Virus record (IMG/VR): IMGVR_UViG_3300042398_000778
Location: 1 to 27,581 of that record
Strand: one strand, 5' to 3'
From: a virus
Length of the DNA stretch: 27,581 bases
Made by a program: the position numbers and the translations under genes. Shown one piece after another: positions 5,084 through 21,545 of the stretch. The notes below the pieces were generated by a model, which searched no databases, was not told where the DNA came from, and was given only the letters and a program-made list of their open reading frames with translations. Position 1 is the stretch's first letter. Each line of letters opens with the position of its first letter.

Positions 5084-5338
5084 TTAAATCTGTTTAGTAA
5101 TATCTAAAATAGCTTCAACTTCTTGCCAATCTTCGTTATGATCGACCCAGTTACCTTTGTATGCAATTTTTATGGCTTTATTGATAATCGCAGGTTTCAC
5201 ATCAAGTTCTTCTGCAATTGATTTGACTGTATCTTTTAAACTTTCTTTTAAATCATCAATTTCACGAAGTACAGTACCACCTTCATTGATCAATTTTTCA
5301 AGTTTAGCTTTTTCTTCTGGACCGTATGCTCTACTCAT
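5084..5338 (-). CDS. dsbA: DsbA-like dsDNA-binding protein of T4-type phages
   Basis: An 84-residue, mostly helical, charged protein starting MSRAYGPEEKAKLEKLI and containing LKDTVKSIAEELDVKPAIIN followed by KAIKIAYKGN. This pattern (helix, then h-K-x-I-A-E-E-L-x-V-K-P-x-h-h-x-K-A-I) matches the small double-stranded DNA-binding proteins annotated as DsbA homologues in cyanophages. T4 DsbA has the same size and binds DNA near late promoters. The name here means the T4 DNA-binding protein, not the disulfide oxidoreductase. AAGGAAA precedes the ATG and a perfect promoter lies 35 bases upstream, so it heads the transcription unit leading into gp43. Confidence 0.7.
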   Translation of the reverse strand: MSRAYGPEEKAKLEKLINEGGTVLREIDDLKESLKDTVKSIAEELDVKPAIINKAIKIAYKGNWVDHNEDWQEVEAILDITKQI

Positions 5339-5372
5339 ATTATTTCCTTATATTGAGTTGTTTAAAAATTCT

Positions 5373-5401
5373 ATTATACTATAGTTGTGGTAGGTTGTCA
5401 A
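5373..5401 (-). promoter_or_regulatory. Consensus sigma70-type promoter for the dsbA/gp43 unit
   Basis: On the minus strand TTGACA (5401-5396) and TATAAT (5378-5373) are separated by exactly 17 bases. The bases upstream of the -35 (AATAAAGA) are the same as at the dnaJ promoter, and the spacer ends CTATAG as at the clamp promoter. The -35 also lies in a 6-bp hairpin (GTCAAT at 5397-5402 with ATTGAC at 5407-5412). Confidence 0.85.
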
Positions 5402-5419
5402 TCTTTATTGACGAAAGAA

Positions 5420-5438
5420 TTGGCGGGATCACCGCCAA
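5420..5438 (-). terminator. Probable intrinsic terminator after the 5443-6687 gene
   Basis: TTGGCGG and CCGCCAA form a 7-bp perfect stem with a 5-base loop, four bases after the stop at 5443. On the minus strand a T-rich stretch (TTCTTTC) follows, shorter than in a strong terminator. It separates the six-gene block above from the dsbA/gp43 unit below, and the new promoter begins 19 bases further on. This terminator-plus-promoter arrangement marks a unit boundary. Confidence 0.65.
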
Positions 5439-5442
5439 TGTG

Positions 5443-6687
5443 TTATTTATAATATGCCCAAGTTGCTTTTAGGGCATCCAATTGTTGTTGAATAGCAGGT
5501 GAAACTGCGGTTGTAAAGTGTCTTAATGCAAAATCAATTTGATAAGCCAATTGATCTAACTGTGGATTATTAGTAGTTGCCGAGTTAGCAGTGGTGTTTG
5601 CATTAGCTGGTTCAGCTGGCTTTCCACCTTGGTTTATCGTAGATGTCTGCGCTGGTTCCTCGGGTGATCCGTTATTAACATATGATGAGATCAGATTCCC
5701 CATATCATCAAACATAATACCATACACTGCTAGACTTGCAATGATTCCACTAATAATTGGATGATTTAACAAGAATGACATTCCACCACGCAATACACGT
5801 TTAGCTATACCAGGTTTTGGAGCAGTAGGTTTAGTTCTTCTTGGTAATCTTGGAGTTTTTAATCTTGCTTCATCTAATAATGATAATGCATATTTCATTT
5901 TATCATTATCTGACAACGTATTATAATCAGTAGATTCAGACATTTCGCCATCAGGATCAATCCCAACTAAATATGCAATTGCTTTGATATCATTTTCAAA
6001 CCCATTATCTGTACTAAATTTCTGAATTGCAGCAGCAGTATTAGGTCCTATTTTTCCATCAACGCCGGTTGGTCCAATATCATATCCAGAATTAACTAAA
6101 TTTGTTTGCAATTCTGATGGTGCATTCTCTTCGCTAGGTTGTGCATCCGGTACCGCATTTTGTGGCGCATTTTGTGGAACTGTTTGTTGAGGAGCGGGTT
6201 CAGTAGTTGGTGATATAATATCGGATGGACTAACGCCTGCATCTTTAAGCGCATTAGTTGCCTCTAAACCACCACCAATAGCCCACCCAAATGGACCTGG
6301 AATTAAGTACCCAATTCCTGACAATGCGGAAATGACAGCGCCGCTTCGATCACCTTGCTGCCATCTATCATATGCGTCTTTGATGCTCAATACTGATCCA
6401 ACACCAGGTAAAAGCTTACCCAAAATGCCTTCATTTGTAGTGTAGCCAAAGCTTTCAATTAGTTCTTTTGAAATACTTATAGATTCAGTGGCAACGCCTT
6501 TTAATTTAGCATATTGATCAATCAATTGTTTGATTTTTTCAATTTCCGATTGATGTTGAGTATCACGATCAGCTGCCCACTGTTTATACTCGGCCTGTGC
6601 TTGGACATTTTTTGCTGCAACTTCATCATTATCGAATATACCTTCTGATAAATGGTCTATTGTATTTAAAATATCTCTAATATCCAT
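5443..6687 (-). CDS. Large unknown protein with peptidoglycan-binding-like and membrane segments
   Basis: A 414-residue protein from the ATG at 6687, preceded by AAAGGGGAA and sharing one base with the upstream TAA stop. Residues 1-65 form a charged helical region with LIDQYAK (55-61), also present in the upstream protein. Residues about 86-150 are Gly-rich and hydrophobic (LLPGVGSVLSIKDAY, IGYLIPGPFGWAIGGGL), membrane-active in look. A Pro/Gln/Ala linker follows at 160-190. Residues 192-230 resemble a peptidoglycan-binding repeat, with VDGKIGPNTAAAIQKF. A basic stretch and a transmembrane helix (305-326) come next, then an Asn/Thr-rich linker and a helical end. This layout would suit a virion protein that meets the cell envelope at entry, or a membrane-tethered factor; that is inference. 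No enzyme motif is seen. Confidence 0.7.
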   Translation of the reverse strand: MDIRDILNTIDHLSEGIFDNDEVAAKNVQAQAEYKQWAADRDTQHQSEIEKIKQLIDQYAKLKGVATESISISKELIESFGYTTNEGILGKLLPGVGSVLSIKDAYDRWQQGDRSGAVISALSGIGYLIPGPFGWAIGGGLEATNALKDAGVSPSDIISPTTEPAPQQTVPQNAPQNAVPDAQPSEENAPSELQTNLVNSGYDIGPTGVDGKIGPNTAAAIQKFSTDNGFENDIKAIAYLVGIDPDGEMSESTDYNTLSDNDKMKYALSLLDEARLKTPRLPRRTKPTAPKPGIAKRVLRGGMSFLLNHPIISGIIASLAVYGIMFDDMGNLISSYVNNGSPEEPAQTSTINQGGKPAEPANANTTANSATTNNPQLDQLAYQIDFALRHFTTAVSPAIQQQLDALKATWAYYK

Positions 6688-11781: not shown

Positions 11782-12431
11782 TGGAAATATGTTTGTTTTA
11801 TATGTTGATATTTAATTGGATCATTTCCGACAGCTGCTAACAACCTCGATGGTGAGCGCATATCATGAACAGTGGCATGTGGACCGATAATAATTTTAGC
11901 TATTTTACCTGGGTCCGATTCGATTAACTGATTAGTTTCACGATTTACTAATCCTCTAAATGGACTAATTTTTAATGTCTTTGATGTAATATTGGCTAGG
12001 TCACACCAGATACTAACAACATCCTTGCCTTTCATGTTTTCGTTTTCATAGATATGATCATGTAAGTACATCATGTTATATGCATCATCAACAGTTGTTA
12101 AATCAACTTGCACAAGTTCACCATGCACAGGGATGCCAACAAACACAGAAATACCAGATCTGGATGTCTCTAGTCCTTGGTTAATAAAGTGTTCTTGTAG
12201 TAGTTTTCTACTTTCTGACACATCCGGTACAGGATATTGTGCAGGAAGAATGGACATCAATTCGGCGGTGTCAATGAAAAAATCAACATCGCCACTGATG
12301 TCTTTTTTACCAATACTACCATATGGATATGTGTGCAATCCTTCTGGTAGTACGTTTTTTAGATTGGTGAATAAAGTTGGAAGATCTTCTTTTTTGATTG
12401 GTTTAGAATTTTTAATTGCGTTTCCGCTCAT
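11778..12431 (-). CDS. DNA polymerase beta-superfamily nucleotidyltransferase
   Basis: A 217-residue protein with the pol-beta-type signature: TYPYGSIGKKDISGDVDFFI gives Gly38-Ser39, then Asp48 and Asp50, and a third acidic residue is supplied by ELVQVDLTTVDD (Asp110). All three metal-binding aspartates expected of the fold are present. Members range from CCA-adding enzymes to antibiotic nucleotidyltransferases and toxin-type enzymes; the substrate is unknown here. C-terminal sequence includes DPGKIAKIIIGPHATVHDM and SPSRLLAAVGNDP, probably a helical substrate-binding part. Its ends overlap both neighbours (4 bases each), placing it in one translationally coupled run with the ligase-like and HxGH genes. 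Confidence 0.75.
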   Translation of the reverse strand: MSGNAIKNSKPIKKEDLPTLFTNLKNVLPEGLHTYPYGSIGKKDISGDVDFFIDTAELMSILPAQYPVPDVSESRKLLQEHFINQGLETSRSGISVFVGIPVHGELVQVDLTTVDDAYNMMYLHDHIYENENMKGKDVVSIWCDLANITSKTLKISPFRGLVNRETNQLIESDPGKIAKIIIGPHATVHDMRSPSRLLAAVGNDPIKYQHIKQTYFQ

Positions 12432-12802
12432 TTATATTTGCCATCTTTGATATGTTGACAGACCTCCTCGTGTATTTTTTCACATATTTCTGAAAGAATA
12501 TTTTCATCTAATACATGTGGTAATTCACGAATTGGGTATTCTTTAGCATACATCTTGAAGCATTCATTCACCGCTTTTTCAAAGAAAATTGGCTTTGTTT
12601 TTTTATTCAATTCTTTACGATCAATGCATCTTGATATAGCTGGATGAAAATGACGGCGATAAGCCTCGTCATTGTTATTCATAAAAAATATTAAATCATC
12701 TGGAAGATCATAATTTAATTCTTTTTTTCCAGTATCATCAACGACTTTAACAAAGTCTGACTCATTAAATTTTTTACTTTCTAATAATTCTATAATACGC
12801 AT
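12428..12802 (-). CDS. Conserved small protein heading the nucleotidyl-transfer cassette
   Basis: A 124-residue, helical, charged protein starting MRIIELLESKKFNESDF and containing LNYDLPDDLIFFMNNNDEAY followed by RRHFHPAIS. Similar small proteins (MRxIELxE start, a YDLxxDLxxFMxNDxxxYR segment, and a basic helical end) occur in marine T4-type phages. No catalytic motif is evident. It overlaps the pol-beta-like gene by 4 bases and is the first gene after a boundary containing a late-promoter-like box. It is probably a partner or regulator of the enzymes that follow; this is inferred only from gene order. Confidence 0.65.
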   Translation of the reverse strand: MRIIELLESKKFNESDFVKVVDDTGKKELNYDLPDDLIFFMNNNDEAYRRHFHPAISRCIDRKELNKKTKPIFFEKAVNECFKMYAKEYPIRELPHVLDENILSEICEKIHEEVCQHIKDGKYK

Positions 12803-12805
12803 AAT

Positions 12806-12848
12806 TGTGTCCGGTTATATGATAGTATTTATCGAATAACCGGACACA
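12806..12848. repeat. 13-bp perfect inverted repeat between clpA and the 12802 gene
   Basis: TGTGTCCGGTTAT (12806-12818) and ATAACCGGACACA (12836-12848) are perfectly complementary, with a 17-base spacer. It lies nine bases after the ClpA stop, spans most of the intergenic gap, and holds the late-promoter-like box in the loop. No T run follows on the minus strand, so it is not a classical terminator. A read-through transcript would form a long hairpin here. Confidence 0.85.
12821..12833 (-). promoter_or_regulatory. T4-late-type promoter box in the hairpin loop
   Basis: On the minus strand GATAAATACTATC matches the T4 late pattern TATAAATACTATT at 11 of 13 positions, including the whole ATAAATACTAT core. 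It stands 18 bases before the ATG at 12802. It would drive the nucleotidyl-transfer cassette late in infection if this phage has a gp55-like sigma factor, which is outside the window. Confidence 0.65.
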
Positions 12849-16287: not shown

Positions 16288-16785
16288 TTATAAAATTGGA
16301 TCTTCTGGTTGTGGAACTAATTTACCAAATTTGCTTTCACCAACTGGTTGTGGAGCGAATCCTTGAACAGGTTGTGGTGGAAATCCAGGTGCCATTGGTG
16401 CGCCAAATGCCGGTTGTACTGGTTGAGCGAAAGGTGCCGGTGCTGGTGCTGATTGTTGTGGCATGAAATTGCTCAAACTTGGCAATGATGGTGTTTCCAC
16501 GCCATTGATTTTTTCTTGAGTTCTACCATGTGCTGTAATACCTAATACAACACCCATCGCGATATGATATAAGCCACCGCCTTGAAGGGTCAATGGTTGC
16601 CACATATCTAAATGTTGCCCTGGATTGTAGTATTGTAGCACGTTATACAGAATTGGTCCAACAATGAAATCAAACAAACATGTTAACATGTAAGTCATAG
16701 CCATCATAGGTCTCCAATTTTTTGACATAAAATCTTCACCTGCTCTTTCTGCTGCTGTCATATCGTTGTAATTTTCTTTTGACAT
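16288..16785 (-). CDS. Holin-like membrane protein (GTA 3TM-holin type)
   Basis: A 165-residue protein from the ATG at 16785, with AAGGAG five bases upstream; a GTG at 16791 is in frame but overlaps that Shine-Dalgarno. The N-terminal part has hydrophobic helices in RPMMAMTYMLTCLFDFIVGP and in GGGLYHIAMGVVLGITAHG. This RP-x4-h start and glycine-rich last helix resemble the three-helix holins of gene-transfer agents and phages. The C-terminal 75 residues are an unusual Pro/Ala/Gln/Phe-rich tail (for example PAPAPFAQPVQPAFGAP), ending in a charged GKLVPQPEDPIL. It would form the inner-membrane lesion that times lysis. Position beside endolysin and spanin genes supports the call; pore formation is inferred. 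Confidence 0.75.
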   Translation of the reverse strand: MSKENYNDMTAAERAGEDFMSKNWRPMMAMTYMLTCLFDFIVGPILYNVLQYYNPGQHLDMWQPLTLQGGGLYHIAMGVVLGITAHGRTQEKINGVETPSLPSLSNFMPQQSAPAPAPFAQPVQPAFGAPMAPGFPPQPVQGFAPQPVGESKFGKLVPQPEDPIL

Positions 16786-16794
16786 TATCACTCC

Positions 16795-17498: not shown

Positions 17499-18125
17499 TT
17501 AAGCACCTAACACTTTCAATGCGTGTGCATAGTGTTTTTTACGGTCTTCTAAACCTATAGTTCCACCATTTATACGTTTAGTCAAAGTTAAAATATCACC
17601 TTGATCTGCCCATCTATTAAGGTTATTTTCTTCCCAATACCAACAAGCCGATTGAATAGCACCTTCGAATGTAGAAAGATATTCTGGTATTTCTTCTACC
17701 GGAGTTTCGATTGATTCTGCAAATTTTATATAATTAGATTTACCAGTCAATTGAATCAGACCACGACCACAATATCTAAAACCATCTCCACTTGATTCTG
17801 GGCCATTACCCATTCTATTACCATAAACCCGGTTAGCGATTGCAGCTTGGTTATGGGCATATTTTGCTGCCAATGCATCAGTTGGGAAGTATTTTGGAAA
17901 TACCTTTCTTAACGATGTTGCACGATAATTTAAATTTTCTTTTAAAAATCTATAATTACCACTTTCATGTGCGGTTTGCGCCAAGAATGCAGCTACTCTT
18001 GGAATGGTATCAATATCATAATCTGGTAAAATCATTTCTAATGCATTAAACCAATAATCAATATATGGATTTCCAGGAATTATCTTCGCTAAGTGTTCTT
18101 TTTTAAAATCAAATTTAAATGACAT
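17499..18125 (-). CDS. Endolysin, glycoside hydrolase family 19 type
   Basis: A 208-residue protein from the ATG at 18125, which has GGAG upstream and shares a base with the preceding stop. It carries GH19 lysozyme/chitinase features: RVAAFLAQTAHESGNYRFLK followed by ENLNY, with catalytic Glu54 (in HES) and Glu63 (in ENLNY). YCGRGLIQLTGKSNY, the substrate-binding Q-LTG segment, and RWADQGDILTLTKRINGG are also present. Phage members cut the peptidoglycan sugar backbone. There is no signal peptide, so release to the wall should need the holin encoded nearby. The order endolysin, inner spanin, outer spanin, holin in one coupled run is a compact lysis cassette. Confidence 0.93.
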   Translation of the reverse strand: MSFKFDFKKEHLAKIIPGNPYIDYWFNALEMILPDYDIDTIPRVAAFLAQTAHESGNYRFLKENLNYRATSLRKVFPKYFPTDALAAKYAHNQAAIANRVYGNRMGNGPESSGDGFRYCGRGLIQLTGKSNYIKFAESIETPVEEIPEYLSTFEGAIQSACWYWEENNLNRWADQGDILTLTKRINGGTIGLEDRKKHYAHALKVLGA

Positions 18126-18856
18126 TAATTTTTCTCCAATGCAACAGCCCATCCACTGTTTTCAAATATAAATGTGTTCCCTACTTTAGTAATATTATAA
18201 TTACCAATATATTTGGTATAGAACATGATTTCAGCCATGTCTTTACTTTCCATCATCATTGGTCCACGAATTTTATTGTAAATATCCACTTTAGGACCAC
18301 TATCAAGTATATTAAAGGATACTGGATCAGACCATGGACGTTTGAAATTAATGGTTTCATCCACCACATTAACATCCGCATTACTACCGGAAAAGAATTG
18401 AGAATAATTATCATCTACGTAACGTTTAGTAGCAAGTTCATATGAATCTTTATTACTTGGAATTATTCTTGTCAAATTTTCCATATTAGCATCATTACTT
18501 TTGAAACTTTTGAAATATCTAAATCTCATATCTGGTATACCAGTTAATCGTTCTATTCCATCTAATAACGTTAAAATTTGTTCAGCAGAATGTTTTGATC
18601 GTTCTATTTCGATGAAAACTTTATAAGTTCCATCTTCGGTTTCCCCTGGACTAACATCAGCATCTAGTACAAAGTCATACCCCAGTTCAACAAAGTTTTC
18701 TAAATCTTTAGCTGGATCTTCTCTATCAACGGTAAAACTCAATACAACAACCCCCGCATCATCACCAATTTTGCTTTTATATGCGTCAATCTCGAAAACT
18801 CGATCAACTAAATTATTAAGGTCATTTGCTCTTAAACTTTCATTAATATTTTTCAT
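18125..18856 (-). CDS. Conserved T4-like marine phage protein, unknown function
   Basis: A 243-residue protein beginning MKNINESLRANDLNNLVDRV, then FEIDAYKSKIGDDAGVVVLS and FTVDREDPAKDLENFVELGY. Next come DFVLDADVSPGETEDGTYKV and IEIERSKHSAEQILTLLDGI. The block from FEIDAYKSKIGDD to ILTLLDGI is strongly conserved among cyanophage and pelagiphage proteins, as I recall. The C-terminal half is less familiar and ends in beta-like segments (NYNITKVGNTFIFENSGW). No membrane helix or catalytic motif is seen. It is coupled by TAATG to the endolysin gene and starts two bases after the 18859 gene. Its constant place in such genomes suggests a virion or assembly role; not shown. Confidence 0.7.
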   Translation of the reverse strand: MKNINESLRANDLNNLVDRVFEIDAYKSKIGDDAGVVVLSFTVDREDPAKDLENFVELGYDFVLDADVSPGETEDGTYKVFIEIERSKHSAEQILTLLDGIERLTGIPDMRFRYFKSFKSNDANMENLTRIIPSNKDSYELATKRYVDDNYSQFFSGSNADVNVVDETINFKRPWSDPVSFNILDSGPKVDIYNKIRGPMMMESKDMAEIMFYTKYIGNYNITKVGNTFIFENSGWAVALEKN

Positions 18857-18858
18857 AG

Positions 18859-19431
18859 TTATACCGGTATTGTTGGAGCACCTGCTGGTGCTTGTGGCTG
18901 TGGTGGCATTCCAGCACCTGGTGCAGGTTGTGTTGGCTGTGGAACTGGTGCAGCACCTGGTAATGGAGTACCAGTTTTTGGTGCTTCTGTCCCTTGCCCT
19001 TCTGCCTTCATTTTGTCCATATATCCTCTATAAATATCAAATGCAACTTCTTTGGGCATTTGAATTTCAACAACCCATACTCGTTGTCTATCCAATTTAC
19101 CTTTTTTAGTACCTGGTCTAATATCGTCAGGGTTTTTTATTGGACGTGGCTCCAATAAGTGTGTTTTTTGAAAGGTTAATTTACAACCCAAATCTAATAA
19201 GCGTTTACCACCAACTGGATCTGGCATCTTTTTTATAGGCCACATTAATCCGACCGTAATCCAATGACGATCTACTTTTGGGCCGTATGCTAATTCCCCA
19301 TCAATCCAATTATCATAAACATATAAATCAAGCTCATCCAAGACTCGTTCAAAGTCTTTTAGTATTCCTAAACTTGAGTTATTTTCATATAAATCTTGGA
19401 TATTTTTAATAACATCTAATACATCATGCAT
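18859..19431 (-). CDS. Conserved T4-like marine phage protein with Pro/Gly/Ala-rich tail
   Basis: A 190-residue protein. The core includes LDLYVYDNWIDGELAYGPKV, RHWITVGLMWPIKKMPDPVG, GKRLLDLGCKLTFQKT and KNPDDIRPGTKKGK. It ends RQRVWVVEIQMPKEVAFDIY before a 45-residue tail of Pro, Gly, Ala and Gln. The motif series (YVYDNWxxGELxxGP, MWPxKKMPDPxGGKRLL, DIRPGTK, VWxVEIxMPK) is characteristic of a conserved marine T4-type phage family of unknown function. AGGA lies upstream of the ATG, and a late-type box faces it in the divergent gap shared with phoH. It heads the minus-strand unit that contains the lysis genes. Confidence 0.7.
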   Translation of the reverse strand: MHDVLDVIKNIQDLYENNSSLGILKDFERVLDELDLYVYDNWIDGELAYGPKVDRHWITVGLMWPIKKMPDPVGGKRLLDLGCKLTFQKTHLLEPRPIKNPDDIRPGTKKGKLDRQRVWVVEIQMPKEVAFDIYRGYMDKMKAEGQGTEAPKTGTPLPGAAPVPQPTQPAPGAGMPPQPQAPAGAPTIPV

Positions 19432-19450: not shown

Positions 19451-19464
19451 ATTGGTATTTATCC
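19451..19464 (-). promoter_or_regulatory. Late-type promoter box for the 19431/lysis unit
   Basis: On the minus strand GGATAAATACCAAT lies 20 bases upstream of the ATG at 19431. ATAAATAC matches the core of the T4 late box TATAAATA-C. It is one half of an imperfect inverted repeat whose other half is the phoH box, so the two divergent units appear to share the same class of promoter. Confidence 0.6.
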
Positions 19465-19501
19465 TTTTAAAACTGTTTATATAATGATTTGATGGTAAAA
19501 A

Positions 19502-19514
19502 GGTAAATACTAAT
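19502..19514 (+). promoter_or_regulatory. Late-type promoter box for phoH
   Basis: GGTAAATACTAAT on the plus strand, with TAAATACTA shared with the T4 late consensus and with the box upstream of the 12802 gene. It lies about 70 bases upstream of the phoH ATG, so its transcript would carry the structured leader at 19515-19557. Confidence 0.55.
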
Positions 19515-19557
19515 GTAGGACCTATGTAGTTATCATGGCGGTTACTACACGTCCTGC
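19515..19557 (+). promoter_or_regulatory. Structured 5' leader of phoH
   Basis: GTAGGAC (19515-19521) pairs with GTCCTGC (19551-19557), allowing one G-U, and TGTAGT (19525-19530) pairs with ACTACA (19544-19549). Together they give a 13-bp two-part stem with a 3-by-1 internal loop and a 13-base apical loop. It lies between the late-type box and the phoH Shine-Dalgarno (AGGAG at 19572-19576), so it would be transcribed but leave the ribosome site free. Confidence 0.6.
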
Positions 19558-19584
19558 TTCTCAATACAAGTAGGAGATTACTGA

Positions 19585-20310
19585 ATGAGTAGAAAACAAA
19601 TGAAAAAACGTTTTACATCAGAAGTTAACATAATAGATTTTCAACCATATATGCCAACAAAGCGTAAACAAGTTACGCTGTCACCAAGAAATAAAAGCCA
19701 AAAAGAATACCTAAGAAAATTACAAGATGAAACTAATAGCATCGTTTTTGCTATCGGTCCAGCTGGCACAGGTAAAACTATGTTGGCAGTTCAAAATGGA
19801 ATTAAATTATTTCAGGAAGGCAAAATTGAAAAAATCGTTGTGACAAGACCCGCCGTTTCTGTAGACGAAGATTTAGGATTTTTACCAGGTACATTGGAGG
19901 AAAAGATGGCACCATGGACTAGACCTATTTTTGATGTCTTTTCAGAATATTATCAAAAAAGAGACATTACAAAATATTTAGAGGAAGGTGTTATTGAGAT
20001 AAGCCCACTAGCGTACATGCGCGGAAGAACTTTTAAGAATGCTTATATTGTTGCTGATGAAGTTCAAGGAACAACCATTAATCAAATGAAAATGCTATTA
20101 ACAAGGGTAGGTGATGGTTCTAAGATGGTTGTCACTGGAGATCTTAACCAAGCAGACCGTCTTGGTGAAAATGGTCTAGATGATTTTATAACTAGACTTT
20201 CCAATCATGATTGTAAACTAATAGACCTTATCAGATTTGACCATACTGATATTGAACGTCACCCAGTAATTAAAGAAGTATTAGCAATATATGGAGATGG
20301 CATAGATTAA
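19585..20310 (+). CDS. phoH: PhoH-family ATPase with a replaced C-terminus
   Basis: A 241-residue PhoH-type P-loop ATPase, common in marine phages; the biochemical role is unsettled, with RNA-related functions suggested for the family. Walker A GPAGTGKT is at 58-65, VTRPAVSVDEDLGFLPG follows, and Walker B is YIVADEVQ (Asp158, Glu159). Next come QMKMLLTR and the sensor segment MVVTGDLNQADRL (TGD at 184-186). The protein is full length. AGGAG stands nine bases before the ATG. Its stop overlaps the convergent stop of the HNH gene in TTAA. Downstream of the HNH gene lies a second phoH C-terminus that reads QNATVSQMKM where this gene reads QGTTINQMKM. I infer that this gene is a hybrid, with codons from about 158 on brought in by the homing element. 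Confidence 0.95.
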   Translation: MSRKQMKKRFTSEVNIIDFQPYMPTKRKQVTLSPRNKSQKEYLRKLQDETNSIVFAIGPAGTGKTMLAVQNGIKLFQEGKIEKIVVTRPAVSVDEDLGFLPGTLEEKMAPWTRPIFDVFSEYYQKRDITKYLEEGVIEISPLAYMRGRTFKNAYIVADEVQGTTINQMKMLLTRVGDGSKMVVTGDLNQADRLGENGLDDFITRLSNHDCKLIDLIRFDHTDIERHPVIKEVLAIYGDGID

Positions 20311-21305
20311 TGTGTACAATTGACCGGGATACCATACGTATTAATTGTGTCCCGGTCAATATATATTTTCTTTTTTGATGTGTTACAATATAATAATATT
20401 TTACCGGTTTTACAAAGTGCTAAATTGTGATATTTGCCAGGTAATAAATCCCCAGTACATTCTTGGTATTCATTGGTTATTAAATTTATGATTTTAAAGA
20501 TAATTTTTGGATTTATGAATGACCAACCAGGTGGCGGAATCGGTATTTCTGATGATACTCTCCTATAATCGCCGAATGAATTCCATACTTGTCTACCAGA
20601 AGTGAATACTTTTATAAAATTAACAGGTACCAATATTGGATCTGCTTCTATAAATATCATGTTATATGGGTCAAAATATAATACACTTTGTATTTTATTG
20701 GTGCGTCTGGCTATCCGTTCTTGAATAGACCTAGGACCATATTTTTTACCCGTTAACGCCTCACTAGTTCTATTTCTGGATAATTGATCACGTTCTTTAT
20801 ATTTTCTACCTGCACTACTCGATATAAGTTCTCCTGATATTACACGTGAATCATCTGTTTTACAACGTATCGAGTTACCGTGTATGTCTTTATATACAGC
20901 ATACCCTTTATTTTGAATACTCAACATCTCGCTTGTTTGTTTCCTGGCTAGTTCGTATGCCCGACTAGATTTTAATTTAATATTCCCACGTTTACTTACT
21001 TGATTACACATACCAACAAATGCGTAAATCTGTGATCCTTTATATGCTTTTGATAGAATCCAATGTGCTATTAAGTGTTCTCGGTAAGTAAGTTTCACAG
21101 AGTTCCATGTATGAATTTTTATATTAGAATACTCTGGAAATAAATCAGCTGCTTTAGGGCATATATGATGAATTTCAGTTCCAATATTATTTGTTTTTAA
21201 CTGACAAGACACAATGAAATTGTAATACCGAGTTAAGAAATGTGGGTTGTTAGGCTTGGATTGTAATATCGTTTGTATGTTCATTTAGTATTTAGCTGAA
21301 TAACA
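20059..21305. mobile_element. Putative homing element: HNH gene plus replacement phoH C-terminus
   Basis: The unit inferred to have inserted runs from about the Walker B codons of phoH through the HNH gene to just before the displaced phoH end at 21306. It consists of about 250 bases of phoH 3' coding sequence followed by the convergent endonuclease gene, whose stop codons interlock. Because the incoming 3' end restores the reading frame, phoH stays complete. The precise borders are not visible without an uninterrupted relative; I place the left one by the first protein difference at the DEVQ/DEAQ region. Confidence 0.65.
20307..21284 (-). CDS. HNH homing endonuclease with NUMOD-like DNA-binding segments
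   Basis: A 325-residue protein. The HNH nuclease fold is seen in TEIHHICPK (His39, His40), Asn61, and VKLTYREHLIAHWILSKA (His70, His74), matching the phage HHI-x-P...N-x-V-x-L-T-x-REHxIAH pattern. A segment GYAVYKDIHGNSIRCKTDD then SRVISGELI (about 128-155) resembles a module frequent in phage HNH enzymes (V-x-KD-x-x-GN...DDxRxxSGEL). SRNRTSEALTGKKYGPRSIQ (169-188) looks like a NUMOD3 DNA-binding repeat. Such enzymes cut a phage gene and copy themselves in by recombination. It runs against phoH, their stops interlocking. No Shine-Dalgarno precedes the ATG; a late-type TAAATACTA ends two bases before it, so the message may be leaderless. phoH near the Walker B codons is the likely target. Confidence 0.9.
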   Translation of the reverse strand: MNIQTILQSKPNNPHFLTRYYNFIVSCQLKTNNIGTEIHHICPKAADLFPEYSNIKIHTWNSVKLTYREHLIAHWILSKAYKGSQIYAFVGMCNQVSKRGNIKLKSSRAYELARKQTSEMLSIQNKGYAVYKDIHGNSIRCKTDDSRVISGELISSSAGRKYKERDQLSRNRTSEALTGKKYGPRSIQERIARRTNKIQSVLYFDPYNMIFIEADPILVPVNFIKVFTSGRQVWNSFGDYRRVSSEIPIPPPGWSFINPKIIFKIINLITNEYQECTGDLLPGKYHNLALCKTGKILLYCNTSKKKIYIDRDTINTYGIPVNCTH

Positions 21306-21545
21306 CAAAATGCAACAGTAAGTCAAATGAAAATGTTATTAACTAGAATTGGCGAAGGATCACAAATGGTTGTAACAGGAGATTTGGCCCAAGCGGACAG
21401 GTTAAATGATAATGGTTTAATCGACTTTTGTAGATTGCTTGCAGAGAAGCCAGAATTAAAACACATCGATGTTGCTGAATTTACAGCAATGGATATTGAG
21501 AGACATGAAGCCGTTAAGGAGGTGTTATCAATTTACGGTGAATAA
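21306..21545 (+). pseudogene. phoH: Displaced C-terminal fragment of phoH
   Basis: This reads QNATVSQMKMLLTRIGEG, then SQMVVTGDLAQADRL and ends EVLSIYGE, clearly the last third of a PhoH protein from just after Walker B. In frame, a stop lies at 21297-21299 and there is no N-terminal ATPase part. An internal ATG at 21327 could give 72 residues, but no Shine-Dalgarno precedes it. By hand alignment it agrees with the C-terminus of the intact phoH at 47 of about 79 positions, so it is not a fresh copy. QNAT here is the usual family sequence while the intact gene has QGTT, which supports this fragment being the original resident end. It still runs into the terminator that would have served the original gene. 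Confidence 0.85.

Follow-up and report, generated by a model that had tools for sequence, protein, structure and literature searches.

Introduction

The late promoters of bacteriophage T4, which lie upstream of virion genes, share the octamer TATAAATA and are served by gp55, gp33 and gp45, and in cyanophage S-PM2 NATAAATA is described as a late-promoter motif (PMC2984593). In T4 e, soc, I-TevI and segB and in Aeh1 mobE, a late promoter is combined with an RNA hairpin near the start codon that hides the ribosome site, and the late messages lack the 5' arm of that hairpin (PMC3014915, PMC2988022). Two further leaders have been described in which a hairpin is found, namely that of seg43 of Aeromonas phage 25 (PMC2988022) and that of psbA of phage S-PM2d (PMC5931967). 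PhoH has been assigned to the RNA-helicase-type proteins (PMC7824862); its gene is common in phages, and its function is still called unclear (PMC3037559).

Here, we have analysed the junction between phoH and a divergent unit of virion and lysis genes. The window, i.e. the whole stretch of DNA studied, is an entire IMG/VR record of 27,581 bases. Its source is an uncultured T4-related water phage, of whose genome the window is probably a fragment.

Results

The plus strand carries phoH at 19585-20310 (241 aa; phrog_170, E 2.2e-75). The opposite unit on the minus strand begins with two virion structural genes (18859-19431, phrog_12928, E 4.4e-27; 18125-18856, phrog_13138, E 2.9e-25), followed by the genes of the endolysin (17499-18152; phrog_181, E 2e-75), two small proteins that, by position only, may be spanins, the holin (16288-16791; phrog_3427, E 5.6e-9) and DnaJ and Clp-like proteins. 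The earlier note had called this a lysis unit; the lysis genes are indeed present, but they come after the two virion structural genes. It had also taken the pair at this junction as the only divergent one in the window, which is incorrect, as an HNH gene (20307-21284, minus strand) and a displaced phoH 3' remnant (21327-21545, plus strand) form a second pair. Among cultured phages, the closest DNA polymerases were met in jumbo phages, for instance Phosso (50.9%) and Atu_ph07 (45.8%).

Two outward-facing putative late-promoter elements are located between the divergent units: AAAAGGATAAATACCAAT on the minus strand (19468-19451), facing the virion and lysis genes, with the octamer GATAAATA at 19456-19463, and AAAAAGGTAAATACTAAT on the plus strand (19497-19514), facing phoH, with the octamer GGTAAATA at 19502-19509, in which base 2 is not A. 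Direct reading of both strands confirmed that the two copies match at 15 of 18 positions. Both octamers are the T4-type late octamer or a close variant of it, the plus box departing from TATAAATA at bases 1 and 2. Motif counts inside the window are weak evidence, and the real evidence is conservation in relatives. Allowing up to three mismatches, the 18-base pattern had three matches in the window, i.e. both elements and 1599-1616 (1.46 expected; 20 of 100 shuffles reach three), and TAAATAC had 13 (8.76 expected; 13 of 100 shuffles reach 13). No clear enrichment of TAAATAC was seen in the window; in a large relative, G001, GATAAATA was enriched upstream of genes, as described below. In the window, GATAAATA occurs five times, always on the minus (main coding) strand, and the word read backwards does not occur.

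Relatives were taken as the best 80 of 267 IMG/VR loci fetched with PhoH. Two were dropped, L070 with no upstream DNA and L031, which has a TAAATAC box but does not conform to the leader pattern, leaving 78 loci plus the window and 54 distinct leaders. Among these best 80 of 267, 77 of 78 loci, and all 75 of those with more than 700 bases upstream, have a virion-gene homologue next to phoH in divergent orientation, and TAARTA boxes face outward both ways in all 54 distinct intergenic regions of testable length (55 were scanned, one being too short). By a rough estimate, a minus-strand TAARTA would be met in about one in five random regions of like size and composition. The divergent junction between phoH and the virion genes is old. 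Since the relatives share ancestry, these conservation counts are not independent.

In the same 54 regions from the best 80 of 267 loci, the minus box starts with GA in 41, base 2 of the plus box differs from A in 51 (the remaining three, with A, have GATAAGTA), and the distance from octamer to octamer is exactly 39 bp in 26 and 51-53 bp in 10. The phoH box therefore looks as if it is kept off-consensus at base 2 within this clade. For L055, the script picked the minus box CCTAAGTA, which is weaker than the visible GCTAAATA. In seven loci with 51-53 bp between the octamers (L040, L042, L050, L056, L061, L065 and L066), a motif like TTCANNNCGCACTTTA was seen by eye about 15-35 bases before the phoH octamer.

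Evidence that such boxes are placed upstream of genes came from G001, a 164,710-base record containing the close relative L060, in which genes were called by a simple ORF script. In an unbiased word count, GATAAATA was the top enriched octamer upstream of G001 genes (15 of 79 regions against an expected 0.54), with seven occurrences on the other strand of these regions. Of its 22 copies in G001, 16 lie upstream of genes, compared with 6 of 23 for TATAAATA; the rest are one in another intergenic region and, within genes, two sense and three antisense. Because GATAAATA is the most enriched upstream octamer, the earlier note was right in proposing that the first T of the T4 box is often G in this phage. 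Across six records, GATAAATA has 78 copies and the word read backwards 17.

We compared 18 G001 proteins encoded behind NNTAAATA-type boxes with PHROGs (two of them are pieces of longer proteins), and 10 had a family match and eight had none. Seven of the 10 were head or tail proteins (baseplate wedge and hub, tail fibres, scaffold-like; one match was weak), the others being a clamp loader behind a poor box, an endonuclease and a protein of unknown function. With T4 gp55 as the query, a partial homologue (residues 22-116, 29-34% identity, 25-31 bits, E 2.1e-8 to 1.2e-6) was found in four of five large relatives, and the fifth, G005, gave no match. The gp33 and gp45 families of Pfam had no match in a search in which the controls stayed silent too.

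On the phoH side, the box is followed by a structured leader. Among the best 80 of 267 loci, TAAATA, five bases and then a stem of the G(U/C)AGG type follow one another with this 5-nt spacing in 48 of 54 distinct leaders. Late transcripts of T4 start about 5 nt past TAAATA, and for this reason the predicted phoH mRNA, with +1 at 19515, would start with the hairpin, a conserved two-tier structure predicted at 19515-19557 (plus strand) from folds and pair counts. The window leader (19515-19587) folds with -20.8 kcal/mol and z -2.38, within the range of -1.25 to -3.48 for z across 16 leaders. In the minimum-energy fold, a 5'-terminal stem of at least 5 bp was present in 44 of 54 leaders and in 533 of 2700 shuffles, so that 10 of 54 missed this strict test, and a stem of at least six pairs was possible in 46 of 54 leaders compared with 2291 of 10800 sequences in which the rest was shuffled (all from the best 80 of 267 loci).

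Pairing extends to 97.8% of cells in the 17 closest leaders (0 of 500 shuffles), in which five cells have two-sided changes (1 of 500), while the number of two-sided pairs (three; 45 of 500) and the pair types (186 of 500) are unremarkable. A covariance model of these 17 leaders was searched against 63 loci, 55 of them with phoH, and gave 45 matches at E ≤1 in 911,572 bases. Of these, 42 were phoH leaders, 25 of them outside the 17 of the close group and seven of these 25 below E 0.01; the other three were one endonuclease leader (E 0.021) and two antisense matches on phoH leaders. The model, which was helped by the promoter core and start region included in it, misses 13 of the 55 phoH leaders. 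Alignment A6, built from 42 matches, has 43 cells with two-sided changes, compared with 9.9 in shuffles and no more than 12 with the partners slid; its 40 sources were chosen because they match the model, two antisense matches (L016, L026) are among its rows, and being fitted to structure it leans towards structure. Taken together, the aligned sequences suggest that the phoH hairpin is conserved by compensatory changes.

Leader groups were set by eye-level rules; alignment A2 does not include L046 and L051, the group A2 of four sequences stayed unaligned, and the hairpin loops differ between groups. When RNAalifold was applied to leader groups B and C as aligned by MAFFT, the two-tier hairpin did not come out (A2, 0 pairs; A3, a different 6-pair stem), and single folds and the covariance model were used in its place. 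Rfam 15 at the gathering score gave no match in the window and no leader match in seven of the nine G001 tiles (L092-L098), so that a known structured RNA family was set aside for the stretches scanned. We also discarded an upstream ORF in the leader (19535-19573), whose ATG is absent or whose frame is shifted in some relatives. In the parts of the CC-licensed literature consulted, we recognised no report of the phoH leader or of the late-box-plus-hairpin design; we propose that the phoH leader, located at the predicted late start, is a new candidate for a structured RNA.

An alternative helix could pair CCTGCTT (19553-19559) with AAGTAGG (19568-19574, plus strand), overlapping the Shine-Dalgarno AGGAG (19572-19576). 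Of its cells, 96.6% are paired across the 17 close leaders, with one two-sided change, a value equalled by 36 of 500 shuffles. The two folds differ by -6.3 to +10.2 kcal/mol across these leaders, by less than 3.5 in 12 of 17, and in the window the fold with the outer helix is more stable by 3.3 kcal/mol. Since the predicted chance of an unpaired Shine-Dalgarno is 0.20-0.53 in all 17, neither fold would free it fully. By inspection, leader groups beyond the closest one lack the partner of this helix.

Late-box-plus-hairpin leaders similar to that of phoH precede many homing-endonuclease genes. Six minus-strand late boxes of G001 share a leader, five reading TGTAGTTC(A/G)CGGA and one TGTGGTTCACGGA, and in five of the six a gene begins 59-72 bases on. 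The G001 proteins behind them have weak Pfam matches only, and their reading as endonucleases rests on a wider set, in which the pattern GATAAATANNNNTGTAGTTCRCGGA was found in at least 120 stretches of IMG/VR. The set used, among the matches listed, comprised 83 matches, 74 with an ORF, and 66 distinct leaders, with 61 in A4 and 61 proteins in A5. Among these listed matches, 32 of the 61 downstream proteins match phrog_314 and 26 match phrog_655, both homing endonucleases (one may match both); a 5'-terminal stem, of which the pattern demanded the 5' arm and not the 3' arm, is present in 65 of 66 distinct leaders compared with 200 of 1320 shuffles, and a second hairpin of at least four pairs around the Shine-Dalgarno, with varied stems, is possible in 55 of 66, a count made without a shuffle control. 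RNAalifold recovered the first of these endonuclease-leader hairpins, with no two-sided change in it, but missed the second, and BLAST of one such leader against cultured phages had no match.

Late leaders are ordinarily short: among 79 distinct GATAAATA boxes in upstream positions (89 loci), 61 have about 15-29 bases and nine have at least 50. Eight of these nine begin with a hairpin under a looser test without control, five belonging to endonuclease genes and two to reverse boxes beside them. In this small set, hairpin starts go with endonuclease genes, as with phoH.

Within bases 4-24 of the endonuclease ORFs (L101-L180), TATTTA is present in 62 of 63 among the matches listed, in frames 44/9/9, against 12 of 1710 background windows. 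This is a signal at the DNA level, perhaps a reverse-facing late box (NATAAATA in 52 of 62). Pairing of TATTTA with the late box in read-through messages was considered and rejected: flank pairing was 2.16 for own and 2.08 for cross combinations (permutation p 0.31), and the start codon was more open in the late message in just 29 of 62. The upstream neighbours of the endonuclease ORFs, among the matches listed, were divergent in 26 cases, tandem in 26 and absent in one.

Mobile elements have targeted phoH repeatedly in this clade. In the window, the HNH homing-endonuclease gene lies in phoH beside a swapped 3' end (region 20179-21545), and the original 3' part of phoH is displaced to 21306-21545. 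The locus L008 has an uninterrupted phoH, L004 has a scar from which most of the endonuclease gene is gone, and the alignment of the new 3' end in the window continues with L006. The PhoH proteins of the close relatives L055 and L060 have an in-frame interruption after residue 149 that, read by eye, is intein-like. The HNH gene of the window is without such a hairpin leader; a GCTAAATA box at 21289-21296 lies just four bases before its ATG (21284, minus strand), so that a near-leaderless late message is possible.

Elsewhere in the window, a late box at 12826-12833 (minus strand) lies in the loop of a 12-bp hairpin (12807-12847) that ends four bases before the gene at 12428-12802. At seven homologous loci, which add two further stem sequences, the box is likewise 24 bases upstream and within a largely self-complementary stem. 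The window also encodes a DsbA-like protein (phrog_639, E 8.6e-11; PF11126 at 21.7 bits, under the cut-off of 25), whose gene (5084-5338) is preceded by a TTGACA-17-TATAAT early-type promoter (region 5338-5475), with TATAAATA further up at 5444-5451 (minus strand). In G001, tile L098:10251-10407 matches the Polynucleobacter-1 RNA (61.9 bits) and there are 15 tRNA matches within 10 kb (tiles L092-L098), hinting at a freshwater betaproteobacterial host.

Discussion

We consider it probable that the two elements are back-to-back T4-type late promoters, with a conserved hairpin in the phoH leader, at an old divergent junction. That they are late promoters, as the earlier note had held, is supported by their footprint in relatives, by the enrichment of the word upstream of genes in G001 and by the partial gp55 in four of five large relatives. 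The DsbA-like protein encoded in the window also speaks for this reading. The minus promoter (GATAAATAC, gp55 class) would start the virion-and-lysis transcript with a short leader, and the plus promoter (GGTAAATAC) would start the phoH transcript, the first base of which would open the 43-nt two-tier hairpin. The phoH box is probably the weaker one, because its second base is kept off-consensus in the clade. The start sites, the lateness of phoH, the promoter strengths and the role of the hairpin are what we infer from these features.

If the inverted elements were instead a DNA operator, or were alike by chance, the counts within the window would say little against it, as they are weak when taken alone; the footprint, strand bias and upstream enrichment in relatives make such an explanation extremely improbable. 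The earlier note had also suggested that one promoter may have been inverted or copied as phoH came to lie on the other strand, which would give the mirror arrangement. The likeness of the arms in the window, 15 of 18 positions and 9 of 12 outside the TAAATA core, would agree with such an origin, and nine is reached in the window alone among the phages compared, and by 0.17% of cross pairs. However, as 54 phages were looked at, one value of nine among 54 own pairs is unremarkable and no strong sign of recent conversion. Over the 54 phages (best 80 of 267), the arms outside the core agree at a mean of 3.87 of 12 positions in own pairs and 3.90 in cross pairs; own pairs are no more alike than cross pairs, and the resemblance is therefore not inherited. 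Moreover, the divergence is common to 77 of 78 relatives (best 80 of 267) and to the Pseudomonas jumbo phage Deifobo, and in relatives the arms are unlike beyond the core, which contradicts an ancestral event of this kind. We regard inversion or copying, which nothing outside the window supports, as very improbable; a recent local conversion confined to the lineage of the window may have occurred.

What could be the role of the hairpin at the predicted start of the phoH message? The most likely one, to which we give slightly less than an even chance, is that it shields the 5' end of phoH mRNA from decay. The mRNA of ompA is a message protected by a hairpin. T4 infection is described as speeding the decay of host mRNAs, ompA included (PMC3014915), and we lowered the share of 5' protection for this reason. 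In the closest group, the hairpin might compete with the fold that hides the Shine-Dalgarno and so tune translation, which we hold to be possible but rather unlikely. We are equally doubtful that the leader is a two-state RNA switch, in which the outer and the Shine-Dalgarno-hiding helices would be exclusive and a protein, ligand or temperature would set the balance. Both pairings are kept, at 97.8% and 96.6% of cells, among the 17 close leaders, and the states are less than 3.5 kcal/mol apart in 12 of them. Yet the two states are seen within the closest group while other groups lack the partner by inspection, the alternative helix has its single two-sided change, equalled by 36 of 500 shuffles, the outer-helix fold of the window is ahead by 3.3 kcal/mol, and with an unpaired chance of just 0.20-0.53 for the Shine-Dalgarno the other fold would not leave this site fully open. 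It is improbable, in our estimate, that the leader is a new phage regulatory RNA in which a translational switch with two states is coupled to the late start and read by the phage itself, possibly by PhoH, an RNA-helicase-type ATPase, on its own message, and that homing endonuclease genes acquired the same late-box-plus-5'-hairpin design as a spreading expression cassette. A hairpin acting as in T4 gene e and I-TevI, which blocks read-through messages and lets late messages escape, is a mechanism described for T4 (PMC3014915, PMC2988022), and the box-in-loop hairpin of the window at 12807-12847 fits it. The phoH stem, by contrast, begins at the inferred +1 and its 5' arm does not lie upstream of the late start, so that late messages would keep the whole hairpin, and the gene upstream of phoH is divergent, which leaves little read-through to silence; we find this mechanism distinctly improbable for phoH.

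Through these leaders phoH, a common phage gene, gains a structured-RNA candidate upstream. In addition, GATAAATA is a usable late-promoter consensus for a clade of uncultured T4-related phages, and the late box plus GTAGTTC hairpin provides a sequence handle for finding mobile genes. In the cultured relatives Deifobo and PA5oct, transcript starts could be mapped and hairpin mutants made.

Among known systems, the genes e, soc, I-TevI and segB of T4 and mobE of Aeh1 resemble phoH in having a late promoter together with an RNA hairpin near the start codon, and differ from it in that their hairpin hides the ribosome site and is left without its 5' arm in late messages, whereas the predicted late message of phoH begins with the hairpin (PMC3014915, PMC2988022). 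Closer in layout is seg43 of Aeromonas phage 25, which like phoH has a stable hairpin upstream of the ribosome site and not covering it; unlike phoH it is an endonuclease gene, and a late start at the hairpin is absent from the description of it in that source (PMC2988022). The 5'-UTR hairpin of S-PM2d psbA likewise belongs to the leader of a T4-like phage mRNA and is accompanied by a gp55 site, although the gene is one of photosynthesis and the source describes it in one phage (PMC5931967).

The promoters share with those of T4 the octamer, the site upstream of virion genes and, in relatives, a gp55 homologue; compared with TATAAATA, the first base is mostly G here, and the phoH box has a second base other than A in this clade. 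In Atu_ph07 and Phosso, phoH is preceded by GATAAATAC and TATAAATAC, its neighbours are tandem and no hairpin is obvious by eye. In Deifobo, a phage of the PA5oct/MIJ3 class, PhoH is 55.8% identical, the leader sequence is dissimilar and the plus box is CATAAATA, with A at base 2, and for this reason the off-consensus base 2 is taken as a trait of the clade of the window. Deifobo is nevertheless like the window in the order of its genes, namely ATP-dependent protease, two virion genes, divergent phoH and clamp loader, and also in its GATAAATA minus box, its late-type plus box and an 8-pair hairpin five bases past the phoH box.
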